Origin: Opitutaceae bacterium
GTDB lineage: Bacteria; Verrucomicrobiota; Verrucomicrobiia; Opitutales; Opitutaceae
Length of the DNA: 64,000 bases
NCBI GenBank assembly: GCA_028691845.1
Contig: JAQUYL010000008.1
Coordinates: 62,001 to 126,000 of the forward strand
Reading direction: 5' to 3'
The notes below the pieces were generated by a model, which was given only the letters and a program-made list of their open reading frames with translations, had not been told where the DNA came from and did no database searches. Made by a program: the position numbers and the translations under genes. Of the stretch, positions 196 through 40,044 are shown one piece after another (positions within the stretch are counted from its first letter, which is position 1; every line of letters starts with the position of its first letter).

Positions 196-216
196 ACGTC
201 AACTAATAGTTGACGT
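196..216. repeat. Dispersed palindrome, copy 1
   Basis: The core GTCAACTAATAGTTGAC spans 198-214 and is extended to 10-base arms (ACGTCAACTA and its complement) around one central base. As a hairpin it would have an 8-bp stem and a TAATA loop. It abuts the 3' end of queF and overlaps the stop codon by one base. The same core recurs at 3239, 23126 and 39982, with relatives at 23056 and 40024. No T-tract follows, so a simple intrinsic terminator is unlikely. Confidence 0.85.
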
Positions 217-2419: not shown

Positions 2420-4216
2420 TCAACGTGCCGGCAGCGGTTCTTGAAAAACGGGCAGGGTGCGGTTGAGCACGTACTGCATGCGATTGAACGCCGCCCCTTC
2501 ATCGTCCGGCACCATGGTGTGCACCACGACATAGGCCCACCGGTGGCTTTGCAAATGGCGCAGGCGGTCCAGCGATGCATAAAGGACCCGTGCCGTGTTT
2601 GAAGCCACCACTTTGTCGGCCCCGACAAACCAGTAGGCGAAAAGCGCGGTCGCCTTCGCCGTCCGGCCTCCGGGAGTGCGGACTTCACGCTCGAGGCGGA
2701 GCACGGTGGCGGGCACCGTGACATCGCGGCGCCCGGGCCAGGTAAAAGTGTGCGCCTGACGGCCCGCGATCGTCCATCCCTGGCCCACCAGACACAATTC
2801 CGGCCGGTGAATCGAAGTCCGATCACGCCCGCTCAGCACGATCGAGAGAAATACCCATTGATCCGGGTCCAGCCGCGAAAAATAATTTTTGCGCGAATAC
2901 CCCGTGTCAGGAGGCAGCACCTGCCGCTCAATATCCGTCACCTCGGCCTCGCGCCCGAACCAGTCGGAACCAATCACGCCGGGCAGCGCGACCGGATTCA
3001 CCCCGTCCGCCGCCAGCTTGACGCCGACTCGCGGGTTCACCTGCGCAAGGTCGAGCCGGTGCGCCGCAAGGATGACCAGCGCGCATCCCGCTGCGACGAT
3101 CACCGCCGGGACCGCCACCGTCCGCCCGGACAAAGTACCACTGAATCCGTTACCCTCCGCCTTGGCGTCAGCCGGCGCAGCGTCCCGCGGAATGTCCCCG
3201 GTAGAGTGGCCTTGCGGCGGACCCAGCCAAGACGGTTTGTCAACTAATAGTTGACGTGTTTCCGGGGTTGATCCGGAGGAATTCGTCCCCGTGGGCTGGC
3301 CCGGCCCGGGTTCCGGCCACCGACGCTGCCAGAGGCTGGTGGCCGCGAGAACACCACCGAGCACGATCACAAACACGATGAAACCGGCCCACTCGTGCAC
3401 CCACACGCCGGCCTCCTGCCCGAACCACTGGCCCGCAAAAATGATGGCGGAAATGCGCACCACGTTGCCCAAAAAGGCCAGCGGCAGGCTCAGCAGGAGA
3501 ATGACGCACCGCCGCCACCAAGCGCGGAAGTTGAGATACCCGACGAGCAGCGACAGTGCGATCAGCGCCATCAGCGAGCGCATGCCCGAGCACGCCGCCG
3601 CCACGTCGTACTGGTAGGAACCATCGGGAGAAAGGAGCTGGGTGCCGTTGCGAATGACCTCCACGCCGCAGGCCCGGGCCAGGTGGTAGCTCGTTTCGAT
3701 GACCCCGAGGCGCAGGTGGAACCCGAGCGTGTCGAAGACATCGACCGGCACCGCCAGTAGCATGAATCCCAAGGGAAACGCCGCCGCCCGCCCCCACCGT
3801 CGCCCGCCCCCGTGCGCCAGCACCCCCCAGGCCACCAGCAGGAAGCCCACGATGGAGATGCGCGTCTGCTGCATCGCGTATCCGAGCAGATGCACCACCA
3901 GGCCTCCGAGCATGGCGGCAAGCGCGGCCCCTCCCACCTCCCGCCTCCCGCCTTCCGTCTCCCGCCTCTCGTTTTGGAGGTTCCGCCAAAACAGCCATCC
4001 CGCCAGGGCCAGGATCAACCACCCATGCTCGCACTCCGACGGTGGATTCCACCATTGGAAGCCCCACCAATAGAACAACGACCGGGTGGGAATATAGCCC
4101 CGTGCTGCATTGCCGAAAAACTGGAACACGGGGAAGGCGACCAGCGCGCACACCGCCGCCGCGATCCATGCGGAGGGCGGTGCGATTCCTGACTTGGCCA
4201 CGGGGGGGCTTGCCAT
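2420..4216 (-). CDS. Exosortase fused to a C-terminal EpsI domain
   Basis: Residues 1-300 (of 598) form a multi-helix exosortase with the catalytic triad visible: Cys in AACSGMRS (about 209), Arg in GNVVRI (about 254) and His in VHEWAGF (about 274). Exosortases cleave and sort PEP-CTERM proteins during transfer to the envelope or exopolysaccharide. After a low-complexity linker (310-355) and one more helix comes an EpsI-type domain ([21 protein letters not shown]), so the two usually adjacent genes are fused. ATG 4216 is chosen over TTG 4252, which would overlap the divergent GT9 gene. The linker contains a dispersed palindrome translated as RQLLVDK. The exact exosortase class is not certain. 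Confidence 0.9.
3239..3255. repeat. Dispersed palindrome, copy 2, inside the exosortase gene
   Basis: An exact GTCAACTAATAGTTGAC lies within the exosortase reading frame, in the linker between the sortase and EpsI domains. Read on the coding strand, two of the three frames through the repeat hit a stop (TAG or TGA). The gene uses the only open one, giving QLLVD. Confidence 0.9.
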
Positions 4217-4245
4217 GCCCACCACAAAAGCAAGATAACGCCTGA

Positions 4246-5181
4246 ATGCCAAGTCCCTCCACGCCTGCGCCCGACCGCCGCCCGCGGCTGCTGGTGGTGG
4301 AGCTTTGGGGCCTCGGTGATCTCGCGCTGGCCGTGCCGTTCCTGCGTGAGGCAGGGCGCCACGCGGAGGTGACGCTGCTGGCCAAATCCCACGCCGCTCC
4401 CCTGCTGCGCCGCTTCTGTGCGGAGATCGAGCACATTTCCTTCACGGCGCCATGGACGGTTTTTCGCGGCAAATACCGACTGCACCGCTGGCCGTGGAGG
4501 GAGATGTGGCGGATCACCCGCGAACTGCGTTCCCGACGCTTCGATGTTGCCGTGTCGGCGCGGCGCGATCCGCGCGATCATGTGCTGATGCGTCTCGCCG
4601 GCGCCCGGCGGCGCCTCGGTTTCCCCCGTTTCGGCTCATCCCTTCTGCTCACGGAGCCCCTCAGCCCACCGGCGCACCCGCACCGCGCCGAACACTGGCG
4701 TTCGTTGGCCGAGACGCTCGGCTGGGAGCTGGCCCCGGTAGCGCCGGCACCGCGCCGCGGCCGCCGCGCCGTCATTCACACGGGCGCGGGCCAGTCCACG
4801 CGCCTCTGGCCGCTGGAACGCTTCGACGAAATCGCGGCCCGGATGCGCGCCGCCGGGTGGGAGGTGACCCTGCTGGACGATTCGCTGCGCGATCTCGATC
4901 AGTTGCTCGCTCGTCTGTCTGCTGCCGATCGTTTCATTGGCAACGATTCCGGCCCGGGACATCTCGCCGCCCTTCTCGGCGTGCCGACATTCACAATCTT
5001 CGGCCCGCAGTTGCCGGAGCTGTTTGCCCCGCAGCATCCGCAGGCAGCGTGGATTGAAGGCGCCCCCTGTCCGTACAAGCCGTGCTTTGATTTCTGCCGT
5101 TATGCCGAACTGCACTGCATCCGCAACCTGACCACTGACGCCGTCTGGCCGCGCCTGGCCGATTGGCTGGCGCGCGGCTAA
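4246..5181 (+). CDS. Glycosyltransferase family 9 (heptosyltransferase-like)
   Basis: The 311-residue protein has the GT9 fold: an N-terminal Rossmann start ([19 protein letters not shown]), a middle linker, and the C-terminal signature [23 protein letters not shown] that binds the ADP-sugar donor. GT9 enzymes add heptose or related sugars to LPS core or surface glycans at the inner membrane face. It diverges from the exosortase gene with about 30 bp between starts and converges on a GT2 gene, where the two stop codons overlap. This supports a surface-glycan role. Donor and acceptor cannot be predicted. Confidence 0.88.
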
Positions 5182-11260: not shown

Positions 11261-13009
11261 ATGAGCGAACAACCATCCACCACCGGCGCCAACCAGGACG
11301 CCGCCCAGAAATATGACGCCGAACTTGCCAGCCCTCCTCCGTCGCAGGCGCGCCACCCCGTTTCACCCGAACAGCTTCGCGCCCAAGCCCAGGAACGCGC
11401 CGCCCAGCGTCCTCTCCTGCAAAAGATCCTGAGCATTTTCCGCAAAGAAAAAGGCTCTTTCCGCGAACTCGTCATCAACTCCGAACCCTTGGAAAAGCGC
11501 GTCGCGCTGCTCCAAGACGGCATCCTCGACCGCTTCGAGATCGAACGTGAGTCCGACAACCGGATGGTGGGAGGCATCTTCAAGGGCCGGATCAAAAACC
11601 TCGATCCCGGGCTGAAGGCCGCCTTTGTCGACATCGGTTATTCGAAAAACGCCTTCCTTCACTACTGGGACATGCTCCCTGCTGCGGCCGACTCCTCGGT
11701 CGAGGTCGTCCGCGTCAACCGCCGGAAGGACGGCGGTGCCCGCCCCCCCGCGCAGCCCACGGTCAAGGACATCCCGAATCTCTACCCGTCCGGCACTGAC
11801 ATCGTCATCCAGGTGACAAAAGGCCCCATCGGCACCAAGGGCCCCCGTACCACCACCAATCTCGCCCTCCCGGGCCGTTTCCTTGTGCTGATGCCCTTCT
11901 CCGACCAGTGCGGCATTTCCCGCAAGATTGAGGACCCCAAGGAACGGCAGCGCCTGCGCCAGATGCTCAACGAACTCACCATCCCCGAGGGCATGGGCGT
12001 CATCGTCCGCACGGCAGGTGAAAACAAAAAAATCCGCTACTTTGTCCGCGATCTCCACCTGCTCCTCAAAAAATGGGATGAGATCACGCGCAAGATGGAC
12101 TCCGAGCGCGCCCCCGCCTGCCTCTACATGGAGCCCGACATCGTCGAGCGTACCGTGCGCGACTTCCTGACCGAGGAGGTCGACCGCGTGCTCGTCGACA
12201 GCGAGGAAGACTATCAGCGCGTGGTCGATCTCGTCAGCCAAATCTCAGGCCGTTCCCGGTCCAAGATCGCTTGTTACAAGGATTCCATCCCGATCTTCGA
12301 ACGCTTCAACATCGAGCGGCAGATCGAGCATACCGGCCAGCGCAAGGTCTCCCTGCCCTCCGGCGGCGAGATCGTCATTGATGAAACCGAGGCCCTCATC
12401 GCCATCGACGTCAACACCGGCTCCCACAAATCGCGGTCCGGCGACGAAAAGAACACGATCTTTCAGGTCAATATGGAGGCCGCGGTTGAGATTTCCCGAC
12501 AGATCCGCCTGCGTAACATCGGCGGCCTCATCATTCTCGACTTCATCGACATGAAGGAGCGGCGTCATCGCAATGCCATCTACGACAAGATGGTTGAGCT
12601 CATGTCGGAGGACAAGGCCAAGACGCACATCCTGCCCATCTCGTCGCTCGGCATCATGCAGATGACGCGTCAGCGCCAGCAGGAGTCGCTCGCCTCCAAC
12701 CTTTACACCAACTGCCCCTACTGCCACGGCCGCGGCATCGTCAAGTCCGCCACCACCATGTCGGTCGAGCTGCAACGCAAGCTTTCCTCGATCGCCCGCC
12801 GCCTGCAGAGCCGCAAGGACGGCAAGGAATACGCCCTGCGCGTGCTCGTGCATCCCTCGATTCTCGATCGCCTCCGCAGCGAGGATACCGACCTGCTGGT
12901 GCGCATGGAGAAGAGCTACGGTGTCAAGCTCGCCTTCCGCGCCGACCCGAACTACCACGTCGAAAACTTCAAGATTATCAACGCCGTCACCAACGAGGAA
13001 TACCGGTAG
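11261..13009 (+). CDS. rng: Ribonuclease E/G family endoribonuclease
   Basis: The 582-residue enzyme cuts single-stranded RNA in rRNA maturation and mRNA decay. After a non-conserved 60-residue N-terminus come the S1 domain ([31 protein letters not shown] split by an acidic/basic insertion), the DNase I-like catalytic core with Asp residues in AIDVNTG and LDFIDM, and the zinc-link [10 protein letters not shown]. It lacks the long RNase E scaffold tail. Its last ~100 bases occur again at 16692-16792, downstream of the perR-katG-bfr block. Confidence 0.95.
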
Positions 13010-13011
13010 GC
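12911..13011 (+). repeat. Direct repeat, copy A: 3' end of rng
   Basis: This 101-bp segment matches 16692-16792 at 97 positions, and 12939-13011 is identical over 73 bp. It encodes the last residues of the intact RNase E/G, ending at TAG 13007-13009. Identity stops two bases after the stop codon. Confidence 0.95.
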
Positions 13012-16691: not shown

Positions 16692-16792
16692 AAGAGCTCC
16701 GGCGTCAAGTTCGCCTTCGGCGCCGACCCGAACTACCACGTCGAAAACTTCAAGATTATCAACGCCGTCACCAACGAGGAATACCGGTAGGC
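16692..16792 (+). repeat. Direct repeat, copy B: detached rng 3' end
   Basis: A second copy of the rng tail, including the same TAG stop, lies 86 bp after bfr with no rng coding sequence before it. The last 73 bp (16720-16792) are identical to copy A; 16692-16719 have four changes. Weaker resemblance to rng seems to continue back to about 16640. Together with copy A it brackets perR, katG and bfr. Confidence 0.95.
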
Positions 16793-17262: not shown

Positions 17263-17763
17263 CTATTTCCCCGACTTCCTTCCCTTCCCCTTGTTCTGCT
17301 TCTCGGTCTTCTCTTCCTCGGCCTCCTTCTTTGCTTTCTTCGCTTTCTCTTTCCCCTCCTTCTTCGCCTTCTCGGCCTTCCTCTCCTCCTTCTGTTTCTC
17401 CTTCTCGGCCTTGCTTCCTTCACGCTGCCTGTCCTTCTCGGCCTTCATTTTCTCCTTCTGTTTCGCCTTCTCGGCCTTTCTTTCCTCGCGCTGTTGCGCC
17501 TTCTTGGCCTTCTCGGCCTTCCTCTCCTCCTTCTGTTTCGCCTTCTCGGCCTTGCTTCCTTCACGCTGCCTGTCCTTCTCGGCCTTCATTTTCTCCTTCT
17601 GTTTCGCCTTCTCGGCCTTCTTCATTTCGTTCTTCCTAGCCTGTTCGGCCTTTTGCTCCTGCCCCACGACATTGGGGGGAGTTTTCTCGTCTGCCGCACG
17701 CACAAGCAGCGGAGAACCCAACATGACTGCGCAAACCGCGAATGGGATGAATTTGGATTTCAT
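17263..17763 (-). CDS. Secreted Lys/Glu-rich repeat protein
   Basis: A 166-residue protein with a clear signal peptide (MKSKFIPFAVCAVMLGSPLLVRA, cleavage near residue 23) followed by about 130 residues made almost only of Lys, Glu, Ala, Arg and Gln in KAEKAKQKE-like units, and a basic tail. A long charged alpha helix or coiled coil in the periplasm is likely. A 36-residue segment is tandemly duplicated at DNA level. I do not recognise a family, and similar low-complexity proteins often match unrelated coiled coils. It converges with the GIY-YIG gene. Confidence 0.75.
   Translation of the reverse strand: MKSKFIPFAVCAVMLGSPLLVRAADEKTPPNVVGQEQKAEQARKNEMKKAEKAKQKEKMKAEKDRQREGSKAEKAKQKEERKAEKAKKAQQREERKAEKAKQKEKMKAEKDRQREGSKAEKEKQKEERKAEKAKKEGKEKAKKAKKEAEEEKTEKQNKGKGRKSGK
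17371..17619 (-). repeat. Internal 108-bp duplication in the Lys/Glu-rich gene
   Basis: Segments 17371-17478 and 17512-17619 are near-identical copies spaced 141 bp (47 codons) apart, so the duplication preserves the frame. Each encodes a block including KMKAEKDRQREGSKAEK. The near identity points to recent expansion. Confidence 0.85.
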
Positions 17764-23055: not shown

Positions 23056-23072
23056 GTTGGCTATTAGTTGAC
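23056..23072. repeat. Dispersed palindrome, degenerate inverted copy
   Basis: GTTGGCTATTAGTTGAC keeps the TATTA centre and the right arm of the family, but its left arm has three transitions. The central base places it in the opposite orientation to the exact copy at 23126, 53 bp away. Confidence 0.6.
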
Positions 23073-23125: not shown

Positions 23126-23142
23126 GTCAACTAATAGTTGAC
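23126..23142. repeat. Dispersed palindrome, exact copy
   Basis: An exact GTCAACTAATAGTTGAC in non-coding sequence. With the degenerate copy at 23056 it forms an oppositely oriented pair. Confidence 0.9.
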
Positions 23143-39981: not shown

Positions 39982-39998
39982 GTCAACTAATAGTTGAC
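39982..39998. repeat. Dispersed palindrome, exact copy
   Basis: An exact GTCAACTAATAGTTGAC, followed by GT as in the copy at 196. It lies 93 bp past the 3' end of gspM and 25 bp from a variant palindrome of opposite orientation. Confidence 0.9.
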
Positions 39999-40023: not shown

Positions 40024-40044
40024 TTGTCACCCATTAGGTGACAA
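40024..40044. repeat. Dispersed palindrome, variant with compensatory arms
   Basis: Arms TTGTCACC and GGTGACAA enclose CATTA. Read on the other strand it is GTCACC-TAATG-GGTGAC, which has the same layout as GTCAAC-TAATA-GTTGAC but with an A-T pair in the arms replaced by C-G on both sides. Confidence 0.8.

Follow-up and report, generated by a model that had tools for sequence, protein, structure and literature searches.

A palindrome translated within an exosortase-EpsI fusion gene belongs to a family-wide system of dispersed palindromes and small HTH cassettes in Opitutaceae

Results

The exosortase-EpsI fusion gene and its palindrome

The window, that is the whole stretch of 64,000 nucleotides of Opitutaceae DNA analysed here, contains on its reverse strand a gene (2420..4252) coding for an exosortase-EpsI fusion protein of 610 amino acids from a TTG codon, the true start being maybe a few codons further in. 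The exosortase domain (PF09721) covers residues 58-307 (3332..4081, reverse strand) and the EpsI/DUF3485 domain (PF11984) residues 403-604 (2441..3046, reverse strand). The protein scored 131.1 bits with the exosortase/EpsH model TIGR02602 (cut-off 105.55) and 60 bits with PF11984 (cut-off 26.1), and a score of 40 bits, slightly below the cut-off of 42.8, was obtained with TIGR02914. The palindrome GTCAACTAATAGTTGAC is located at 3239-3255 (3239..3255, reverse strand; codons 3236-3256) and is translated as (R)QLLVD(K), the peptide RQLLVDK corresponding to residues 333-339. Since these residues lie between the two domains, the repeat is in the linker of the fusion, as the earlier note had proposed. 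Direct reading showed also that, of the three frames in which the repeat could be read, two are closed by a stop and the gene uses the only open one. None of 2000 synonymous redraws of the RQLLVDK stretch was as palindromic as the real DNA, and the palindromy at 3239 is therefore not forced by the peptide.

Copies in the window and in the host genome

Four exact and two degenerate copies of GTCAACTAATAGTTGAC were present in the window, compared to 0.02 expected (up to 3 mismatches). Outside the linker, an exact copy was found at 198..214, just 3' of a queF-like gene, and two others are intergenic: one at 23126..23142, paired with the degenerate copy GTTGGCTATTAGTTGAC (23056..23072) at a distance of 70 nt, and one at 39982..39998, located 44 nt from a palindrome of a second (ACC) type, GTCACCCATTAGGTGAC, at 40026..40042. 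The host genome (G000; 2.95 Mb, 37 contigs) contains 22 exact copies, with 0 in the control; together with the excess in the window, this showed that the repeat is not due to chance. The window contains also an imperfect 33-bp tandem repeat with 11 overlapping copies (17292-17685) and a 101-bp direct repeat, 96% identical, whose copies (12911-13011 and 16692-16792) are 3.8 kb apart.

With the wider pattern GTCANNNAATNNNTGAC, 76 places were found in G000 and 0 in the control. Their arms are of the types GTCAAC (23), GTCACC (27) and GTCAT (25), a single site being odd, and at nearly all 76 sites a change in one arm is mirrored by the matching change in the other. Two sites within genes with non-canonical arms (L076 and L103) are probably chance matches. 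Asymmetric, half-changed copies are present as well, and many of the variants changed in one arm only are transitions, so that a G-U pair remains on one of the two strands. Beyond a core of 17-23 bp the flanks of the sites hold little information, and no GTAG/CGTC tag was found in the aligned flanks of the 76 sites.

According to a hexamer gene model, 66 of the 76 sites lie between genes (21 convergent, 35 tandem and 10 divergent), 6 across a gene end and 4 within genes. The palindromes are thus enriched between convergent genes, with 21/66 compared to about 10% of intergenic bases, a small reference taken from the window alone. Pairs of palindromes are often separated by 41-46 bp. In a helicase-like ORF of about 814 amino acids (L104:576-3017, in G000:C27 45664-48680), two palindromes of the ACC type lie at a distance of 45 bp and share one open frame, with the peptides CHPIGDK ... 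CNPIGDN.

Distribution across the family

The GTCANNNAATNNNTGAC pattern gave at least one match in 196 of the 252 genomes of the family, with a range from 0 to 117, and the number of palindromes differs widely among congeners (0-117 within genera). The family was taken as Opitutaceae because a protein of G261 is identical to one from a named Opitutaceae record. A sister type, GTAACNNAATNNGTTAC, was present in 117 of the 252 genomes. In 15 genomes from other families of the order, a third pattern gave no more than a single match each, as did the control. One asymmetric form predominates in G023, and tandem arrays of palindromes occur in some genomes. The 6.0-Mb, single-contig genome G003 carries about 20 untagged palindromes AAAGAGTAACC..GGTTACTCTTT, the GTAG/CGTC tag being not consistent in the flanks of the 20 sites examined.

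Four palindromes with a regular, array-like spacing of 66-68 or 90 bp were observed in L288 (G060:C319) and at G057:C1 2648303-2648589. In G061, G062 and G063, several palindromes (e.g. L232, L234, L262 and L275) were also observed at up to about 200 bp from contig ends, as if they were close to repeats that break the assembly.

Small HTH genes between palindrome pairs

A search for genes recurring beside the palindromes led to a small ORF enclosed by two of them. At the first loci, homologous HTH ORFs of about 120 amino acids are enclosed at 8 of 8 distinct places where like palindromes are separated by 395-455 bp, and the ORF is absent between pairs spaced by 280 and 331 bp. In 20 further regions chosen by coordinates, the HTH ORF was found in 9/9 with a spacing of 390-530 bp and in 0/11 with another spacing. 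Altogether, the gene was enclosed at 17 of 17 distinct sampled places where like palindromes are separated by 390-530 bp; in each of these cassettes the upstream palindrome precedes a start codon by 4-51 nt, and the distance of the downstream palindrome to the stop is -4 to 71 nt. In the genome G000, where cassettes were located by palindrome spacing rather than by protein search, exactly three places have the spacing of a cassette (contigs C13, C15 and C24), and each of the three arm types has one of them. At L301 and L302 (G057:C1, about 470.7 kb and 2178.0 kb), two copies of GTCACCTAATAGGTGAC separated by 344-345 bp enclose no HTH ORF, perhaps corresponding to a deleted or different cassette.

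The HTH proteins of the cassettes have 11 invariant residues in common. Searches against Pfam gave weak matches to YdaS for 13 of the 17 proteins and to HTH_3 for 7 of them; the best YdaS match reached 2e-4, below the cut-off, and the best of four proteins scored 20.7 bits for the YdaS/Cro family, compared to a cut-off of 30. No NCBIfam match was obtained for the three proteins searched, and a profile search against the PDB gave weak homeobox and Cro matches only. With three different single queries, neither phages nor plasmids nor viral contigs yielded a homologue, and a phage or plasmid origin was thus rejected. Where the same arms occur in different genomes, the proteins have a recognition helix in common: LDRQ for GTCAAC, PRQRVH[DE]F[LI]VGRGRMP for GTCACC and PRQRIH[ED]FLKS for the CCATAATGG GTCAC form. 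A residue of the recognition helix tracks one base of the palindrome: column 89 of the alignment is a histidine in 8/9 GTC-type and 1/8 GTA-type proteins (Fisher p 0.003, uncorrected for kinship), the two exceptions being L291 and L297; columns 39, 32 and 31, outside the helix, are associated with the arm type as strongly, again uncorrected for kinship.

The linker site in exosortase orthologues

Orthologues of the exosortase were found in 102 of the 252 genomes. The 98 loci examined correspond to 95 distinct ones, L126-L128 being dropped as copies of G177, G026 and G261, and the set covers loci other than contig-end cases (G210, G250) and C-terminal-only or unlisted matches (e.g. G079, G084, G127, G186 and G262). 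At 21 of the 95 loci the linker carries a palindrome with at least 7/8 symmetric pairs, and two of these loci carry two, giving 23 strict copies. A decayed palindrome was assigned by eye at 8 further loci, and 66 have none. Outside the linker, only two matches with at least 7/8 symmetric pairs were found in the same ORFs (L032 and one of the two matches of L146); they are excluded from the 23.

The linker copies have arms of the types GTCAAC, GTAACC, GTAACG, GTAGTC, GTCACG, GTCATA and GTCATC, plus the CCATAATGG form, and all 23 are read in one frame. Two frames are open in the three CCATAATGG copies, yet the same one is used. This shared frame would be expected if a linker peptide, C-[HN]-x-x-x-[DY]-K, were conserved and its palindromic encoding accidental. 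For 20 of the 23 copies, however, at most 0.5% of synonymous redraws were equally symmetric (5-7% for the remaining three, which all encode CHPLDD), which refutes the peptide motif; the residues vary while the palindromy stays, and 66 of the 95 loci do without the palindrome, so that a conserved peptide has practically no chance of being the explanation.

In an alignment of 19 linker copies with their 23-nt context, out of approximately 31 copies, the arm covariation score was 0.415, compared to 0.139 when shuffled (0/500) and at most 0.104 when slid. Symmetric covariation is what would keep the stem of an RNA or single-strand DNA hairpin involved in mRNA stability or termination, and the one-sided transitions leaving a G-U pair point in the same direction, as does the better folding of palindromes with their own than with swapped flanks (-23.7 vs -22.4 kcal/mol), an effect that is real on average and small. 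The strand bearing the G-U pair is nevertheless inconsistent, no U-run follows the stem in G000, no Rfam family matches, and the presence of one HTH gene per arm type is left unexplained; we consider a hairpin improbable. An intrinsic terminator was rejected on the absence of the U-run beside the stem in G000, and a known RNA family on the Rfam search, which gave only a tRNA within the window.

On the exosortase tree, presence of the palindrome needs 13 changes, or 11 without the decayed rows; 7 are forced by well-supported branches, and the mean for shuffled data is 25 (label 'none'). These counts indicate that the linker site was gained several times and kept in two clades. In the genus g59, a strict or decayed copy lies at the same codon position in 7 of 7 species, with several arm types, so the place persists despite the turnover of the arms. 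A simple insertion would not predict this pattern. Decay was seen between G177 and G162, whose sequences are 92% identical and which have few palindromes each in their genomes: the left arm is gone in G162.

These data bear on the suggestion of the earlier note that the element is mobile, with selection for frame-preserving insertion. The constant frame in the 23 strict copies, the several independent gains and a signal at the level of DNA rather than peptide are in line with it. A clean empty site was not seen, and the alignment of the fusions from relatives that the note had recommended gave no tidy insertion edge within genera, the linker being hypervariable (72-132 residues). The note had also held that orthologues keeping the same residues without the DNA repeat would speak against its view; the opposite was found, since the residues vary and the palindrome persists.

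A related possibility is a REP-like miniature mobile element, comparable to the GTAG/CGTC REPs and the Rickettsia palindromic elements, copied around the genome by a transposase acting in trans and tolerated in frame, of which the HTH cassette would be the master copy. We consider it unlikely, even if it would suit the patchy copy number (0-117), the pairs 41-46 bp apart, the arrays, the enrichment between convergent genes and the second gene carrying palindromes in frame, and even if in-frame REPs have been published for O. terrae (available part of PMC3733652). The Y1 transposase family PF01797 gave 0 matches in G022 and G016 and one weak match in G000, so that RAYT mobilisation was rejected as a requirement, and PF01797 counts, as judged by eye, do not track palindrome counts. 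The GTAG/CGTC tag is absent from the flanks in G000 and not consistent in those of G003. Transposases are not enriched among 100 neighbour genes; as the proteins encoded there are diverse, toxin-antitoxin or transposase neighbours were rejected too. The g59 copies, with different arms at one codon position in 7/7 species and no clean insertion edge, also disagree with such an element.

Match to the host genome and persistence of places

The linker arms differ between species, are symmetric throughout and usually match palindromes elsewhere in the same genome. In G057, G060 and G061, the 17-mer of the exosortase gene recurs many times in the genome, and the same holds for G058. The coarse GTAAC/GTCA ratio of the genome follows the exosortase type in most carriers, with the exceptions G057, G058 and G105. 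Strict linker carriers are rich in palindromes (median 39 vs 9, Mann-Whitney p 4e-5; 10.5 in decayed carriers), these medians being based on two patterns by which other arm types go uncounted, as for G060 with 4 by these patterns and about 61 by another count.

In several species pairs of the genus g20 (e.g. L254/L276 and L241/L282), an intergenic place is likewise occupied in both species by palindromes whose arms differ, as found in a comparison of 60 stretches from six species. Since these stretches were picked because they bear palindromes, they show that places are shared and not how often. One g20 place reached without this selection bias is empty in G061.

Symmetric changes at persistent places would also result from template switching, a mutational by-product that makes imperfect palindromes perfect with neither selection nor mobility, and the asymmetric half-changed copies are in line with it. 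It leaves unexplained the agreement of the exosortase copy with the remaining copies in its genome, as well as the cassettes and the single frame with recurrent gains, and we regard it as very improbable.

Discussion

The larger finding is the family-wide palindrome/HTH system to which the exosortase copy belongs. The repeat looks like a binding site because each version flanks a small HTH gene whose product probably recognises it. With a probability of roughly two in three, we propose that the palindrome serves as a dispersed operator, to which a small autoregulated Cro/YdaS-like HTH protein binds. From the match of arms to cassettes, each protein probably recognises the palindrome of its own cassette, and it would bind it as a dimer. 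The gene would be contained in a cassette of about 410-470 bp directly between two copies of its palindrome, the one near the start codon serving for autoregulation and the second lying near the stop. Each genome would then have one to several cassettes, each with its own arm sequence, together with tens of solo copies, most of them outside genes and with an excess between convergent ones. Solo copies may exert their effect wherever the protein is bound, most likely by forming roadblocks at the 3' ends of genes, as do phage stoperators. When the specificity of the protein shifts, both half-sites would change and many places would be kept, so that species would differ like dialects.

In this system the exosortase linker would be one of the rare intragenic sites, gained several times. 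It may be tolerated owing to the lack of conservation of the linker and to the one frame free of stops, and it would be retained as long as the host has the system and decay where the system is scarce. A function of the palindrome even within a gene, the other option of the earlier note, is thus favoured by the putatively cognate cassettes, and both of its options, mobile insertion and in-gene function, appear partly supported; binding, mobility and function alike are inferred here.

The half-changed hybrid palindromes suggest that change proceeds site by site. The dominant asymmetric forms, the arrays and the swings in copy number suggest copying rather than selection of sites. A minimal selfish unit made of a DNA-binding protein and its own site, spreading and re-spelling across host chromosomes without a transposase, is conceivable, and we hold it as a doubtful alternative. 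Cassettes would in that case seed solo operators throughout the genome, and existing sites, one of them within a conserved gene, would be overwritten in place by a new specificity.

If the operator reading is true, numerous pairs of a protein and its operator would have diverged in parallel throughout a whole bacterial family, each pair having tens of sites per genome. This would amount to a natural experiment on how specificity changes jointly in a DNA-binding protein and in the sites it recognises. Intergenic palindromes that resemble REPs and are not accompanied by a transposase would become candidate protein binding sites. The linker would provide an example, open to testing, of a regulatory DNA site that persists within a coding sequence although it has been re-spelled several times.

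Compared with known systems, the HTH proteins exhibit a weak similarity, over residues 64-107 approximately, to phage repressors of the YdaS/Cro type (PF15943, PF01381; PDB 2pij), but they remain below the curated cut-offs, and their N-terminal part and RPG..TPLWN region are without assignment. DNA uptake sequences of Neisseriaceae are present in thousands of copies. According to the available part of PMC3630211, their dialects are likewise dispersed, with a species-specific spelling and a cognate DNA-binding protein. The Opitutaceae repeat differs in being palindromic, in its tens of copies and in the gene inside a repeat pair, and no link to competence was seen for it.

By the description of a REP as a multicopy palindrome of 20-40 bp that is located chiefly between tandem or convergent genes, the Opitutaceae repeat qualifies. 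The accessible text of Di Nocera et al. 2013 (PMC3733652) describes tagged GTAG/CGTC REPs which are likewise short palindromes with alternative complementary stem bases, forming dimers and lying mostly 3' of genes, with some in frame inside genes and, in REPtrons, a gene flanked by repeats; O. terrae is given as the richest for intragenic GTAG REPs. A palindrome translated inside a gene is therefore known in kind. The same portion of PMC3733652 mentions the Rickettsia palindromic elements, also translated in frame inside genes, of which RPE-4 and RPE-6 are CGTC-tagged, whereas the Opitutaceae repeat is untagged. With no unpaired GTAG or CGTC-like tetranucleotide at one end in G000, and none consistently in G003, the palindrome departs from the GTAG/CGTC REPs. 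It differs also from REPtron/RAYT systems, since it needs no IS200/605-type tyrosine transposase, its partner being an HTH protein, and since its arms differ at persistent sites. An untagged palindrome family with HTH cassettes was not found in the literature searched, from which subscription papers were largely absent.

A close parallel may be the immunity repressor of cluster A mycobacteriophages with its stoperators, described in the available parts of PMC9283540 and PMC6550527 as many dispersed sites. Both systems would have a repressor with numerous dispersed sites and specificities that differ between relatives, and dispersed sites with an HTH gene were found here for 17 cassettes, cognacy being deduced from the arm match. 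The Opitutaceae system differs from the stoperators in that its sites are perfect palindromes in the host chromosomes of one bacterial family, and in that its Cro/YdaS-like protein, for which no phage or plasmid homologue was found, is encoded in a cassette between two of the sites that it would recognise.
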